A stretch of DNA of 64,000 bases from Thiotrichaceae bacterium (GTDB lineage Bacteria > Pseudomonadota > Gammaproteobacteria > Thiotrichales > Thiotrichaceae): contig JAGLEV010000042.1 in assembly GCA_023144895.1 (NCBI GenBank), forward strand, positions 1 to 64,000, read 5' to 3'. A program made the position numbers and the translations under genes. The notes under the pieces are model-generated. The model was given only the letters and a program-made list of their open reading frames with translations, made no database searches and was not told the DNA's origin. The first letter of the stretch is position 1; the number at the start of each line of letters is the position of its first letter. This document shows positions 9,023 to 55,490 of this stretch, in pieces.

Positions 9023-9955
9023 ATGTCAAAACAATTTTTTCTAATAATCATTTTATATTGTCTATTATTGGCAGGATGTACAGGGCGCTCTGTCAGTAAT
9101 ATAGCGGCTAGCAGTTCATCCGAAAAAGATTACAGCGTATTGCCTGATACTAAGCAACCTGTTGTTTATCCTATTGATTCTAAGCAATCCGTTGTTTATC
9201 CCGTTGATGTAAAGCAACCCAAGTTATCTGAGCGTGAATTAATGTTGATTAGTCAGCGTATCTATTTTAATGAGACATCGGCAAGACGCAAGAACTTAAT
9301 TATCTGGAATGAAAATGAAAAATTTGTTTCACTCGGAATTGGGCATTTTATTTGGTATCCAGAAGGTGTTAATAAGCGCTTTGATGAAACTTTTCCTCGC
9401 TTGCTTGATTATTTACAGAAAAATCAAGTGAGAATTCCTTTTTGGTTGCAAAGTGCTCGTGAGCGAGGCGCTCCTTGGAAAACAAAGCCTGCATTTTTAG
9501 CCTCTCAATATGACCCTGAGCTACGTGAATTAAGGAGAATTTTACAGAGTACCAAAGAATTACAGACACTCTTTTTTCTCAACCGTATTCATCAGTCAAT
9601 CCCAGAAATATTAAGCAAAGTTTCAGCGAGTCAGCGAGAAAAAGTAAAAAACAATTATAATGCCTTGGCTAATACAAAAGGGGGTTGGTATCCATTAATT
9701 GATTATATTAACTTTAAAGGGACTGGCTTAAAAGTAACAGAACATTATCAAAATCAAGGCTGGGGGATGTTGCATGTGCTTCAGGAGATGCCGCGAGTAG
9801 AAGTTGGTACTGTCGCCTTGAATGAGTTTTCTCAGGCTGCCTTAAGGGTTCTACAAAGACGAATTAATAACTCACCAAAAGAAAATAATGAAGATCGTTG
9901 GTTGGCAGGGTGGACTAAAAGGGTTAATAGCTATAAAGATCCGTTGGTCAATTAA
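9023..9955 (+). CDS. Conserved lipoprotein with lysozyme-like GIGH motif, function unknown
   Basis: I do not recognise a named gene. The 310-residue product has a lipoprotein signal peptide with lipobox LAGC (Cys19). A Ser-rich linker follows, then 2.5 copies of a ten-residue repeat (DxKQxVVYPx, residues 42-66). The folded domain includes ETSARRKNLIIWNENEKF and SLGIGHFIWYPEG. The pattern acidic residue, gap, GIGH resembles the catalytic face of T4-type lysozymes (GH24), which suggests but does not show a muramidase-like fold. Two later parts (GGWYPLIDYINFKGTG and QNQGWGMLHVLQEM) look like conserved core. It stands alone about 50 bp after proB. Confidence 0.8.
   Translation: MSKQFFLIIILYCLLLAGCTGRSVSNIAASSSSEKDYSVLPDTKQPVVYPIDSKQSVVYPVDVKQPKLSERELMLISQRIYFNETSARRKNLIIWNENEKFVSLGIGHFIWYPEGVNKRFDETFPRLLDYLQKNQVRIPFWLQSARERGAPWKTKPAFLASQYDPELRELRRILQSTKELQTLFFLNRIHQSIPEILSKVSASQREKVKNNYNALANTKGGWYPLIDYINFKGTGLKVTEHYQNQGWGMLHVLQEMPRVEVGTVALNEFSQAALRVLQRRINNSPKENNEDRWLAGWTKRVNSYKDPLVN
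9146..9220 (+). repeat. 30-bp tandem repeat inside the lipoprotein gene
   Basis: Two full units (9146-9175 and 9176-9205) and a half unit (9206-9220) encode D-x-KQ-x-VVYP-x. The units keep frame and differ at a few bases. They lie in the linker between the lipid anchor and the folded domain, so copy number could vary without breaking the protein. Confidence 0.8.
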
Positions 9956-24000: not shown

Positions 24001-24452
24001 TAGCTTACCTTCTTTTCATCAATGGCTTGGTTGGCAAGTGCATCGACTCGCTCATTATCAGGGTCACCACTATGACCTTTAACCCACTCCCATGTGACAT
24101 CATGTCCCTGAGTGGCTTCATCAAGGCGTTGCCATAAAGCTTTATTCTTGACAGGCTTCTTTTGAGCTGTGCGCCAATGATTCTTTTTCCAGCCATGAAT
24201 CCAAAGAGTAATTCCTTGACGTACATACTGTGAATCTGTTGTTAATATCGCAGAGCAGGGGCGTGTTAATGCCTCCACACCACGAATGGCAGCCATTAAT
24301 TCCATTTGGTTGTTGGTTGTATCGGCTTCATAACCATAAAGCTCTTTTTCTACTTCAGCATAACGTAATAATACGCCCCAACCCCCTTCTCCTGGATTGC
24401 CCCGACAAGCACCATCAGTATAAATTAGTACCACTTGGTTATTTTTGGTCAC
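24000..24452 (-). CDS. rnhA: Ribonuclease HI
   Basis: Degrades RNA in RNA-DNA hybrids. The catalytic DEDD set is visible: [11 protein letters not shown] (Asp), [10 protein letters not shown] (Glu), LTTDSQYV (Asp) and the late ERVDALAN (Asp), with the basic handle WKKNHW. I chose GTG 24452, which has AAGGAG eleven bases upstream and gives a 150-residue protein starting just before the first strand. A further in-frame GTG at 24491 would add 13 unneeded residues. It overlaps the upstream methyltransferase by 14 bp and the dnaQ start by one base. Confidence 0.95.
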
Positions 24453-25215
24453 GTGATTGTTGACTCCTTGGAATAGGGTTAATGGCAACACCCGCAGCTC
24501 GACTGGGAAAAACAGTACGTGCCTGAGATTTTATAGGTGTTTGAGAGTAGCTCTCTTTTTTCGCATGGATAATATAAAGCTTGCCTAAAATAGGCCAGTA
24601 TAATTGTCCCCAGTTTTCCATTATCTCACTACGGTGATACAGTTTACCTTTCAAGAAAGCAGGGCGAAAGCCTAAATAGGAAATTTTATTAACCTTCCAG
24701 TTAAGCAAAGTGAGCCAGTCTTGTATTTGTCTGACGCCATAAAGTTTTGAGTGAGGTGAAGTATTAACCGCTGAACGTAATGATCGATGACTAAATAGCA
24801 AAGACAGTGGATTGAAGCCAATAAAAACACATTCACCATCAGCAACTAACACCCGATCAATTTCTCGTAGTGCCTGATGTGGTTGCATTGAACATTCAAA
24901 AATATGGCTGGCAATAACAAGGTCAATACTATTAGCTGCCAAGGGGAGAGCTTCTGGCTTTGCATGAACATTGGTATCTTGCATATTATGACCAATAGAA
25001 AACCGCGTTCCAATAAGGGACTCATCTAAAAAGTGCTGATGGTCAACGAGTGGACCTGTTTCATAAGCATAATAGCCAAAAGTGTGAGATAGATAGTCTT
25101 TTATTTTGGGATTAATTTGTTCAAGGATATATTGACCCTCCACCGTTTCATACCACCTTGAGCAGCTATCATAAAGTGATTTAATATTGTGTTGTTCATC
25201 GACCACTGGTGACAA
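24439..25215 (-). CDS. yafS: SAM-dependent methyltransferase, YafS-like
   Basis: Class I methyltransferase of unknown substrate found beside rnhA in many gammaproteobacteria. The Methyltransf_11 core is visible: [18 protein letters not shown], then [20 protein letters not shown]. The glycine-rich SAM loop is unusually degenerate ([10 protein letters not shown]). 258 residues. It starts a tight three-gene unit, yafS-rnhA-dnaQ, read away from the divergent mltD, matching the E. coli neighbourhood. Symbol assigned by synteny and similarity. Confidence 0.82.
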
Positions 25216-25318: not shown

Positions 25319-26818
25319 ATGAAATTCCAAACCTATAAGCTGCTTATGCCAAGCTTTATGCTGTTGGCGTTGTCAGCATGTTCTAGCCATGTCACGAGGG
25401 TTAATAAAGCCCCTTTAATGTCTTCTCTTCCATCATCTATTCAAAAATCGGTCGCTTATGACCACTCAAAGCGTCCTACAGTAAAAAAACCCACATTTAC
25501 ATATCGTCATGCTGCTCCAACAAAGAAAGCAGTAAAAAAGGCGGTGAAGAAAAAAGTAAAACGTGTTCAGCCGAAAAAACTATCTAAAAAAATATTAAAA
25601 AGAGCAAAGCCACTTGCGAGAAATGTACCAAAACGAGTAAGGCGACCTGCGAGAAGTGCACCAAAACGAGCAAAGCCACTTGCGAGAAGTGTACCAAAAC
25701 GAGTAAGGCGACCCATTGTTAATCGTAGTCGCCCTCATGTTCGACACCTTGCTAGACCTGTGGCTCAAGTACCACCAAAATATAAGCCACATCGATCAGC
25801 ATATAAGCCTCAGTATAAAGTTGGAATGAAGTTCCAATCTAAGTCGCGTCGTGTGACTTATTCGCCGAATTTGAAAAATCAGCAAGCCATTGCTGGCAGT
25901 CGCCCTGTGAATCCTTTGGGGAGAATCAGAGGGACTTGGGGGCATATTCATCGGGGGTATCGCTTTAAAAATTATCGCTATAAATCAAAAGTAAAAAAGT
26001 ATATCCAAAGCTTTAGTTCTAAGCCAGGTTATATGTCACTATTAACCGAACGCTCTGCTCCCTATTTACCAACAATTTTACAGGAAGTAAAGCGTCGTGG
26101 TATTCCAACAGAAGTGGCATTGCTTCCTTTTGTGGAAAGTGGTTTTAAAACAAGAGCCTACTCACATGCACATGCAGCGGGTCTATGGCAATTTATTCCA
26201 GGAACCGCTCGTCGTTACGGTCTGAAAGTAACTAAAAAATATGATGCACGTTACAACTGGCGCTTATCAACCAAAGCTGCATTAAGCTATCTTACTGATC
26301 TTAATCGTCAGTTTAAAGGGGACTGGTTGCTATCGTTAGCAGCATATAACTGTGGTGAGCGTCGCGTACATCGTGAGATTAAGCGTAATAAAGCAAAAGG
26401 CTTACCCACCGATTTTTGGCATTTAAGACTACCTAAAGAGACACGCCATTATGTGCCACGTTTACTTGCATTTAAGGCAATTTTTAGTAATCCAAGAGAG
26501 TATGGTATTCATGTTGTGTCAATCCCACATAACCCACAATACCGTAAGATAAGTAATGTAGAAATGCAGAAAAAAGCATTGCAAATACAATTACAGGCAA
26601 CAAAAAGAAAGTCGATTAGAAGAAAGTTACTTAGGAAAAAAAGAGTAAAGCGTGTGGTAACACATAAAGTTCGATCAGGTGAGACGCTTTATCGAATTGC
26701 TCGACGCTATGGCATTAGTGTTAGAAAGATTAAGCGAATGAATCGTTTGAAGTCGAGCCGCATTAAAATTGGTAAGCGTTTGAAAATTGCGATGAATAGA
26801 AGTAAGAAACGACGTTAA
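25319..26818 (+). CDS. mltD: Membrane-bound lytic murein transglycosylase D with a Lys/Arg-rich linker
   Basis: Cleaves peptidoglycan glycan strands, leaving 1,6-anhydro ends. The lipoprotein signal has lipobox LSAC. The SLT catalytic domain (about 235-400) shows LLPFVESGF with catalytic Glu273, AGLWQFIPGTARRYGL, and AAYNCGERRV. One LysM domain closes it (about 447-490, HKVRSGETLYRIARRYG). Start ATG 25319 gives the signal peptide; 12 upstream in-frame residues are left out. Residues about 55-195 are an extreme Lys/Arg/Pro linker with 11-residue repeats, not seen in E. coli MltD. Divergent from yafS-rnhA-dnaQ as is usual. Confidence 0.93.
   Translation: MKFQTYKLLMPSFMLLALSACSSHVTRVNKAPLMSSLPSSIQKSVAYDHSKRPTVKKPTFTYRHAAPTKKAVKKAVKKKVKRVQPKKLSKKILKRAKPLARNVPKRVRRPARSAPKRAKPLARSVPKRVRRPIVNRSRPHVRHLARPVAQVPPKYKPHRSAYKPQYKVGMKFQSKSRRVTYSPNLKNQQAIAGSRPVNPLGRIRGTWGHIHRGYRFKNYRYKSKVKKYIQSFSSKPGYMSLLTERSAPYLPTILQEVKRRGIPTEVALLPFVESGFKTRAYSHAHAAGLWQFIPGTARRYGLKVTKKYDARYNWRLSTKAALSYLTDLNRQFKGDWLLSLAAYNCGERRVHREIKRNKAKGLPTDFWHLRLPKETRHYVPRLLAFKAIFSNPREYGIHVVSIPHNPQYRKISNVEMQKKALQIQLQATKRKSIRRKLLRKKRVKRVVTHKVRSGETLYRIARRYGISVRKIKRMNRLKSSRIKIGKRLKIAMNRSKKRR
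25601..25711 (+). repeat. 33-bp tandem repeat coding a cationic linker in mltD
   Basis: Units at 25601-25633, 25634-25666, 25667-25699 and a partial unit at 25700-25711 encode RAKPLARNVPK, RVRRPARSAPK, RAKPLARSVPK and RVRR. Units one and three are nearly identical, as are two and four, so the present array looks like a duplicated 66-bp pair. All copies keep frame. Confidence 0.9.
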
Positions 26819-26832
26819 GTTAAGGAGGTCAT

Positions 26833-27414
26833 GTGCTAGAGGATATAAATACTCGTATTCGATGTGAGAAAAAAGCACTGAGAGTTGCACTTGACCCAAT
26901 AGCGATTGATCGTTATTCAAAGCAGATAGCACAACACCTTGTCGCTAGCAAAGTCTATAAAGCAGCACAACATATTGCTTATTATTTACCAGTGCGAGGT
27001 GAAGCCGATGCTCAATTAATAACTCACAGGGCAAAAGGTAAAACATTTTATTTGCCGATTGTTAAAGAAGAGACAGAAAATCATTTGCTCTTTGCACCTG
27101 TGAATAATGCAACAAAGTATAGTAAAAATAAGTTTGGAATATTAGAGCCTATAACTACTAAGTTTTTGAGTTCTTTAGAACAATTAGACCTCGTAGTCAC
27201 ACCTTTAGTTAGTTATGACCAAAAGGGTAGTCGCTTAGGAATGGGAGGTGGGTTTTATGATCGAACCTTTTCATATAAACAGCGTCAAAAAAAAGGTAAG
27301 CCATTATTAATTGGCTATGCTTATTCATTTCAAGAGTCCACAAACATTCAAATACAGGTTTGGGATGTGGCTTTAGATGGCATAGTGACAGAAAAAGGTT
27401 TTTCTTTGTTTTAA
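26833..27414 (+). CDS. ygfA: 5-formyltetrahydrofolate cyclo-ligase
   Basis: Converts 5-formyl-THF to 5,10-methenyl-THF with ATP, salvaging folate. The signature GSRLGMGGGFYDRTF and the N-terminal IAYYLPVRGEADAQ are typical; 193 residues is normal. The start is GTG 26833, with a perfect AAGGAGG four bases upstream; an out-of-frame ATG overlaps it at 26831 and stops at once. It follows mltD by 14 bp and is probably co-transcribed. In many relatives ygfA lies near zapA and the 6S RNA gene; neither is seen here. Confidence 0.92.
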   Translation: MLEDINTRIRCEKKALRVALDPIAIDRYSKQIAQHLVASKVYKAAQHIAYYLPVRGEADAQLITHRAKGKTFYLPIVKEETENHLLFAPVNNATKYSKNKFGILEPITTKFLSSLEQLDLVVTPLVSYDQKGSRLGMGGGFYDRTFSYKQRQKKGKPLLIGYAYSFQESTNIQIQVWDVALDGIVTEKGFSLF

Positions 27415-54827: not shown

Positions 54828-55490
54828 TTATCTTCCAGGGTGGTATTTTCTCCATAAATCCATGTACTTAATAATATGATCATGCTTTATTTGGCGCGCT
54901 AGGATATAGGGATTCTTGCCATCTGAATTAACGGTATAGATGCTACTACCTTGACCTACTAGGTAACGTACAATCTCAAGATGCCCAAAGCGTGCAGCAT
55001 GATGGAGAGGAGTCCAGTTTTTAATGGATTTAGAGTCCACATCACCCTTATGAGTTGCTAATACTTTTACAATATTTAGATTGCCATGGGCTGCCGCGAT
55101 ATGTAGTGCTGTAATCCCATCCTTTTTACTATAATTAGGATCTGCACCTGCTAATATATACTTCTTTATCCCCTCATAGTCATCAGTATGAGCTGACCGA
55201 AGAAGTTTTTTATCCAGTATTAGTTTACTTTGTGCTTCTATTTCTTCTGGGCTGAGCTCTATTTTCTTATCCCTTTTTTTACCTTTTCTTTTTTTCCTAC
55301 TTTTTTTACTCTTTTTGCTTTTTCTTTTTGAATCCTTTTTACCCTTAATAAGACCATTGAAAAAATTAGGATTATCAGATTCTATACTGTTAATGAGGTC
55401 ATTCCATTTTTGGTCAGCGAATGTGACTTGCATTGTACTTATCATTATTAAGAGCGCGACAAGAGAGGGAATAAATTTATTAATGGACAT
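54828..55490 (-). CDS. Exported ankyrin-repeat protein with a lysine tract
   Basis: Unnamed 220-residue protein. A signal peptide (cleavage near TFA-DQ) precedes a run of about 28 residues that are mostly Lys, Arg and Ser (KRKSKKSKKSRKKRKGKK). Three ankyrin repeats follow at about 110-210 (DGITALHIAAAHGNLNIVKV; NWTPLHHAARFGHLEIVRYL; DGKNPYILARQIKHDHIIKY). The ankyrin part should bind a protein partner in the periplasm; the lysine tract could bind anionic glycans or phosphate groups. No function can be assigned. It stands alone, convergent with murJ. Confidence 0.85.
   Translation of the reverse strand: MSINKFIPSLVALLIMISTMQVTFADQKWNDLINSIESDNPNFFNGLIKGKKDSKRKSKKSKKSRKKRKGKKRDKKIELSPEEIEAQSKLILDKKLLRSAHTDDYEGIKKYILAGADPNYSKKDGITALHIAAAHGNLNIVKVLATHKGDVDSKSIKNWTPLHHAARFGHLEIVRYLVGQGSSIYTVNSDGKNPYILARQIKHDHIIKYMDLWRKYHPGR

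Follow-up and report, generated by a model that had tools for sequence, protein, structure and literature searches.

The window (the whole stretch of 64 kb that was analysed, from an uncultured member of the Thiotrichaceae) contains a gene for a lytic transglycosylase lipoprotein of the MltD type, located between genes for a methyltransferase and a 5-formyltetrahydrofolate (5-FTHF) cyclo-ligase. The domain architecture of the encoded protein is summarized in Table 1 together with the tandem repeat found in its linker. The putatively lipidated cysteine of the lipobox is followed, as read from the sequence, by a serine at position +2. According to the usual +2 rule a serine in this position leads to retention of a lipoprotein in the outer membrane.

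Table 1. Features of the mltD locus (positions in the window; residue numbers are those of the MltD-type protein).
Feature	Position	Strand	Remarks
Methyltransferase gene, adjoins mltD	24439..25215	-	Neighbour kept in family
MltD-type lytic transglycosylase lipoprotein gene	25319..26818	+	499 aa, N-terminus MKFQTYKLLM
Signal peptide with lipobox LSAC, Cys21 as putative lipidated residue	25319..25381	+	Read from sequence
Linker from lipid anchor to SLT part, residues 22-205, 184 aa	25382..25933	+	K30 R25 P22, one D/E; net +54
Densest K/R/P part of linker, residues 52-180 (129 aa)	25472..25858	+	36% K/R, 13% P, zero D/E
Tandem repeat, 33-bp units, 66-bp dimer	25598-25714	+	A 25598-25630, B 25631-25663, A 25664-25696, partial B 25697-25714
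SLT catalytic domain, residues 258-360	26090..26398	+	Pfam, E 6e-27; Glu273 in invariant VES motif
Basic connector from SLT to LysM, residues 400-448	26516..26662	+	Net +15
LysM domain, residues 449-490	26663..26788	+	Pfam, E 1.5e-15; net +15
5-FTHF cyclo-ligase gene, adjoins mltD	26833..27414	+	Neighbour kept in family

Judged from its sequence this protein is of the MltD type with putative peptidoglycan-cleaving activity. An SLT domain with the glutamate in its VES motif, a C-terminal LysM domain, a lipoprotein signal and the neighbourhood typical of the family are all present, and among 19 family loci searched for the gene order methyltransferase–mltD–5-FTHF cyclo-ligase the methyltransferase occurs in 16 and the cyclo-ligase in 15. 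By far the best NCBIfam model for the 499-aa protein is PRK10783 (murein transglycosylase D), and its score of 252 bits misses the equivalog cut-off of this model (508 bits), whose 457 positions were probably built on the form with two LysM domains. The name MltD-type is thus based on the agreement of domain order and synteny and not on the PRK10783 score. An earlier reading of the same DNA, made from the letters alone, had already called this protein an MltD with a lipid anchor and an SLT domain, and lipobox, Pfam match and best model agree with it. Among solved structures the closest is 8rhe, which covers the SLT part alone. A segment of about 80 residues between SLT and LysM (consensus KPVxLRxAAxxAGL...LPR), found by alignment in most other MltDs of the family, is missing from five of the six MltDs of the genus and retained in the sixth, L006. 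Rfam detected no RNA features within mltD (the sole match in the window is a tRNA-Met elsewhere), the count of promoter-like sites inside the gene is not above that in shuffled sequences, and the sole match in a search of plasmid DNA was an mltD fragment of Providencia.

With MltD of Escherichia coli and other gammaproteobacteria this protein shares the lipobox, the SLT domain with the same invariant motifs, the C-terminal LysM and a nearby methyltransferase gene (putative methyltransferase genes are found near E. coli mltD). In contrast, the E. coli protein has a short and nearly neutral linker and a net charge of only +22, as well as two LysM domains (in the consulted part of PMC10931528) instead of one. 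The same part of that source places E. coli MltD among the outer-membrane lipoproteins and reports a severe reduction of its function when the LysM region is missing (PMC10931528).

The most conspicuous part of the protein is the linker. The sequence-only reading had described a stretch of about 140 residues consisting mainly of Lys, Arg and Pro, which is fair in view of the dense part within the 184 residues, and had placed 33-bp tandem repeats at 25601-25711, which agrees with the in-frame array of Table 1 and with the single array reported by TRF in the linker (25597-25703, 33 bp x 3.2, 83% match). With a score of 158 this is the top array of the window; the second (9145-9220) is a 30-bp tandem repeat with 2.5 copies. 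The translated units of 11 amino acids, A (KRAKPLARxVP) and B (KRVRRPARSAP), follow each other in the order A-B-A-B', where the two A units agree in 31 of 33 bases, the two B units in 17 of 18, and A and B in 26–28 of 33. Self-matching peaks at lag 66 (score 46, where 200 codon shuffles gave at most 13.5), and the array is best read as a dimer of 66 bp (22 amino acids), with the 66-bp duplication as the younger one. Slippage was rejected as a complete explanation of the linker because the repeat supplies just about 39 of its 184 residues and 17 of its 55 Lys and Arg; the remaining 145 residues contain 38 Lys and Arg and one acidic residue. The linker is predicted to be disordered, since AlphaFold2 with an alignment of 27 MltDs gives pLDDT values mostly below 50 for residues 25-201 and mostly above 90 for the SLT part and LysM.

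We searched 29 genomes of relatives, 6 of the genus and 63 of the family, among which no second genome of the same species was found. At E 1e-50 or better 56 of the 63 family genomes contain an MltD match, and 58 family MltDs were usable, with L027 (no MltD frame) left out of the family table and the 5'-truncated L023, L026 and L070 out of the linker statistics. Beyond the family, a scan of named genomes with the single protein gave zero matches and an alignment-based scan gave 80 loci; after removal of seven from the family itself and of three that were truncated or short, 70 non-Thiotrichaceae MltDs remain, mostly from Pseudomonas. Their lipoboxes were located by pattern, so that some boundaries are rough, and the linkers have a median length of 40.5 residues and a median net charge of +1 (range -17 to +8), while the whole proteins have a median of +15 and a maximum of +37. 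Together with the E. coli protein this shows that such a linker is not the rule among well-studied MltDs; had it been, the earlier reading would have fallen. When the feature was looked for in other MltDs of the clade, as the earlier reading had advised, a comparable linker was found in one family member, L068 from genus g8, and not in the five congeners, whose linkers are shorter (54-95 residues, net +7 to +18) and have no array. In linker charge the window MltD ranks first (+54) and L068 second (+47) among the 58, the latter with its own 44-aa K/R/P repeat unrelated to that of the window. As the locus of L068 lacks the conserved neighbours, it is probably a paralogue. Two genomes of g8 (G041, G044) have four MltD-like matches each at E 1e-50 or better, some with long cationic linkers, and this number suggests a paralogue expansion.

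The sequence-only reading missed that the entire enzyme, as well as most SLT enzymes of the genome, is cationic. The whole protein has a net charge of +117 and a pI of 11.8, and outside the linker the core (+26), the connector (+15) and LysM (+15) are basic too. Across the 58 family MltDs the charge of the linker correlates with that of the core (rho 0.67) and that of the LysM tail (rho 0.62), and for eight genus medians linker and tail charge reach rho 0.98; the linker thus follows core and tail, which argues against local slippage alone. In the same 58 proteins lower GC goes along with more Arg (rho -0.71) and more Lys (rho -0.52). Pressure towards AT by itself is expected to lower Arg, and therefore AT bias was rejected as a full explanation and selection is favoured for this trend, in which clades and GC are confounded.

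Is this charge a property of MltD or of its functional class? We determined the best net charge in 50 residues for 300 ORFs from 360,691 bases of the genome that contains the window (G000; the window and 20 further stretches). MltD is first, which proves little because it was pre-selected by the finding itself; its fellow ORFs with high charge matter instead. Ten of the 300 reach +16, and five of these have peptidoglycan-hydrolase domains, namely MltD, two small SLT proteins, an enzyme of the Slt70 type and an AMIN-amidase-LysM protein. The other five are a DUF1287 lipoprotein with RRP repeats, an ankyrin protein, one ORF without Pfam match, IF-2 and an SRP54-like protein (the last two labels are our own naming from sequence). 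Whole-genome family searches, which do not depend on this sampling, yielded a median of +16 for the SLT ORFs of three genomes of the genus (n=26) versus +7.5 in two genomes of g2 (n=18; p 3e-6, in a test that like all charge tests here treats related sequences as independent). The g2 genomes appear to be Thiothrix because the MltD linker of Thiothrix fructosivorans (L074) is identical to that of one g2 genome (L042). At least +16 is reached by 6 of 9 SLT ORFs in G000, 5 of 9 in G004 and 3 of 8 in G005 and by 0 of 9 in both g2 genomes, G063 and G066; some SLT enzymes of the genus are ordinary (+5, +6, +9). Amidase_3 proteins reach +13 to +16 in the genus (n=4) versus +6 and +8 in g2 (n=2; p 0.05), and M23 proteins show a weak difference (medians +10, n=13, versus +6, n=12; p 0.035, for 25 of 27 matches, with the two below the cut-off omitted). 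Of four further genera in the family two resemble this one and two are mixed: among the SLT matches listed (30 of 40) medians are +20 in g4 (n=6) and +17.5 in g8 (n=6), versus +11 in g7 (n=7) and +10 in g5 (n=11). Nine E. coli hydrolases of our own choice range from +5 to +12.

Within G000, 11 peptidoglycan hydrolases (6 of 9 SLT ORFs, as the first six per genome were used, 2 of 2 Amidase_3 and 3 of 4 M23 matches) have a median of +17 versus +7 in 115 other ORFs classed as exported by a crude hydrophobicity rule (p 6e-7), and 8 of the 11 exceed the 95th percentile of these others. The corresponding values are +13 versus +5.5 in G004 and +8 versus +4 in G063. Wall hydrolases are therefore basic-leaning in all three genomes, and the lineage of the window exaggerates this, which makes it a difference of degree. 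Part of the shift is general because the exported proteome of G000 is slightly more basic overall (median net charge per residue +0.017 versus -0.012 in Thiothrix).

Several other proteins of this genome face the wall or contain repeats. The DUF1287 lipoprotein (L179:16925-18250, on G000:C26) has an RRP-rich repeat linker with +21 in 50 residues and no acidic residue, and the gene of a cationic SLT protein lies shortly downstream. In a LysM lipoprotein (L157:1498-2613, on G000:C49) tandem repeats of 24 bp encode VRRPVVQP units beside several His-rich stretches. The OmpA-domain proteins L166 and L168 contain K/P or AYK repeats; in L168 (382-2826, on G000:C38) AYK-type repeats flank the OmpA domain on both sides and Thr/Pro repeats follow near the C-terminus. 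The ankyrin-repeat protein (window 54828-55490), probably exported, shows a Lys-rich tract after its signal sequence with +17 in 50 residues that include seven acidic ones. LysM, SPOR and OmpA-domain proteins elsewhere in the genome are neutral or acidic (e.g., L155, L158, L164, L165), and for this reason the cationic rule is not universal.

Searches by title found no pairing of lytic transglycosylases with lysine-rich tracts, those by title and abstract for Thiotrichaceae and peptidoglycan gave nothing on cationic hydrolases among the papers listed, and the sole match for a hydrolase with a positively charged disordered region concerns FtsK. The linker is a real and rare feature of a known general kind, as both disordered lipoprotein linkers and basic wall hydrolases have been described, and the class-wide trend adds to its interest. 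With the linkers of Pal, NlpD and RcsF it shares its place between the lipid anchor and a domain that binds peptidoglycan, as well as a lack of structure, which is predicted here. Such a linker can act through its length, and length together with Lol sorting is what the consulted part of PMC12826056 deals with, whereas the mark of the window linker is its strong and acid-free positive charge. For Gram-positive hydrolases (lysostaphin-type M23 enzymes and SH3b fusions) the parts consulted of PMC8498115 and PMC11237380 report an influence of net charge and of ionic strength on activity, with positive charge favouring the anionic wall. There the charge sits on folded domains acting on a Gram-positive wall; here it is found in a disordered tract of a Gram-negative periplasmic enzyme.

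We propose a lineage-wide cationisation of peptidoglycan hydrolases, which probably serves to keep them on the sacculus by electrostatic attraction and in which slippage has lengthened one particular linker, and assign to this reading a probability of about 0.5. It has to be weighed against the view that a flexible spacer of any kind suffices, so that slippage and drift set length and composition and the charge has no function. The linkers of the genus, about 54 to 185 residues long, cannot be aligned with each other, the near identity of the two A units marks the repeat as recent, and many outer-membrane lipoproteins contain a disordered linker, whose length is important in Pal (in the consulted part of PMC12826056). 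Neutral growth hardly explains, however, why acidic residues are avoided except for one throughout the linker, why its non-repetitive residues are cationic too and why charge covaries with the folded domains and is common to unrelated hydrolases of the genome, and we consider it rather unlikely. A general bias, by which all exported proteins of a low-GC lineage are somewhat basic and MltD forms the tail of the distribution, could rely on the exported ORFs of G000 being slightly more basic than those of Thiothrix or E. coli, on the correlation of charge with low GC and on cationic repeats in some exported proteins that are not hydrolases (the above mentioned L166 and L168 as well as L179:1207-2022). 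Yet the hydrolases of G000 lie about +10 per 50 residues above its other exported proteins and Arg becomes more frequent towards high AT, where mutation alone should make it rarer, which makes this bias an improbable cause.

RcsF threads through a barrel to the cell surface. A comparable path for the MltD linker, or its contact with anionic lipid head groups and LPS phosphates of the outer membrane, would suit the serine at +2 and a cationic block that begins about 30 residues from the lipid, but the cationic hydrolases of the genome include some that have no lipobox and whose tails lie at a great distance from a lipid anchor (L244, L249, L258), and a literature search for RcsF with cationic proline-rich features gave nothing; we see little chance for either variant. 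Least probable is binding of nucleic acid such as extracellular DNA by a histone-like tail; nucleic acid was one of the partners named by the sequence-only reading. The tails of histone H1 are indeed rich in Lys and Pro, and the composition of the linker recalls them. But Pfam yields SLT and LysM alone without any histone-type family, the protein is an exported lipoprotein and the trend follows peptidoglycan hydrolases, so that this part of the earlier interpretation was rejected, while anatomy, rarity and repeat origin stand.

In the proposed retention on the sacculus the linker would span the distance from outer membrane to sacculus, and its Lys and Arg would hold MltD to the carboxylates of peptidoglycan (D-Glu, meso-DAP) by weak multivalent electrostatics on top of the specific LysM contact. 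A long disordered polycation that is fixed by lipid and LysM on its two sides may add many weak contacts, and anionic wall glycans would be its best-fitting target. Duplication of a 33-bp and then of a 66-bp unit gave part of the length. The same pressure would have turned most SLT hydrolases of the lineage cationic by differing routes, i.e. linkers, C-terminal tails and surface substitutions. More tentatively, we suggest that SLT hydrolases and an amidase evolved in parallel to strong positive charge via disordered repeat-prone K/R/P tracts, as a shared code of electrostatic retention and possibly an adaptation to ionic strength, of which MltD with its +117 is the extreme; a link of charge to marine versus freshwater life is only a suggestion. 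How Gram-negative bacteria retain hydrolases on their thin sacculus and restrain them is partly understood. This lineage, where many hydrolases from different enzyme families became cationic, and Thiothrix of the same bacterial family, where they did not, offer a natural comparison for the question whether bulk charge, beyond domains like LysM, may control the retention of such enzymes and their dependence on salt.
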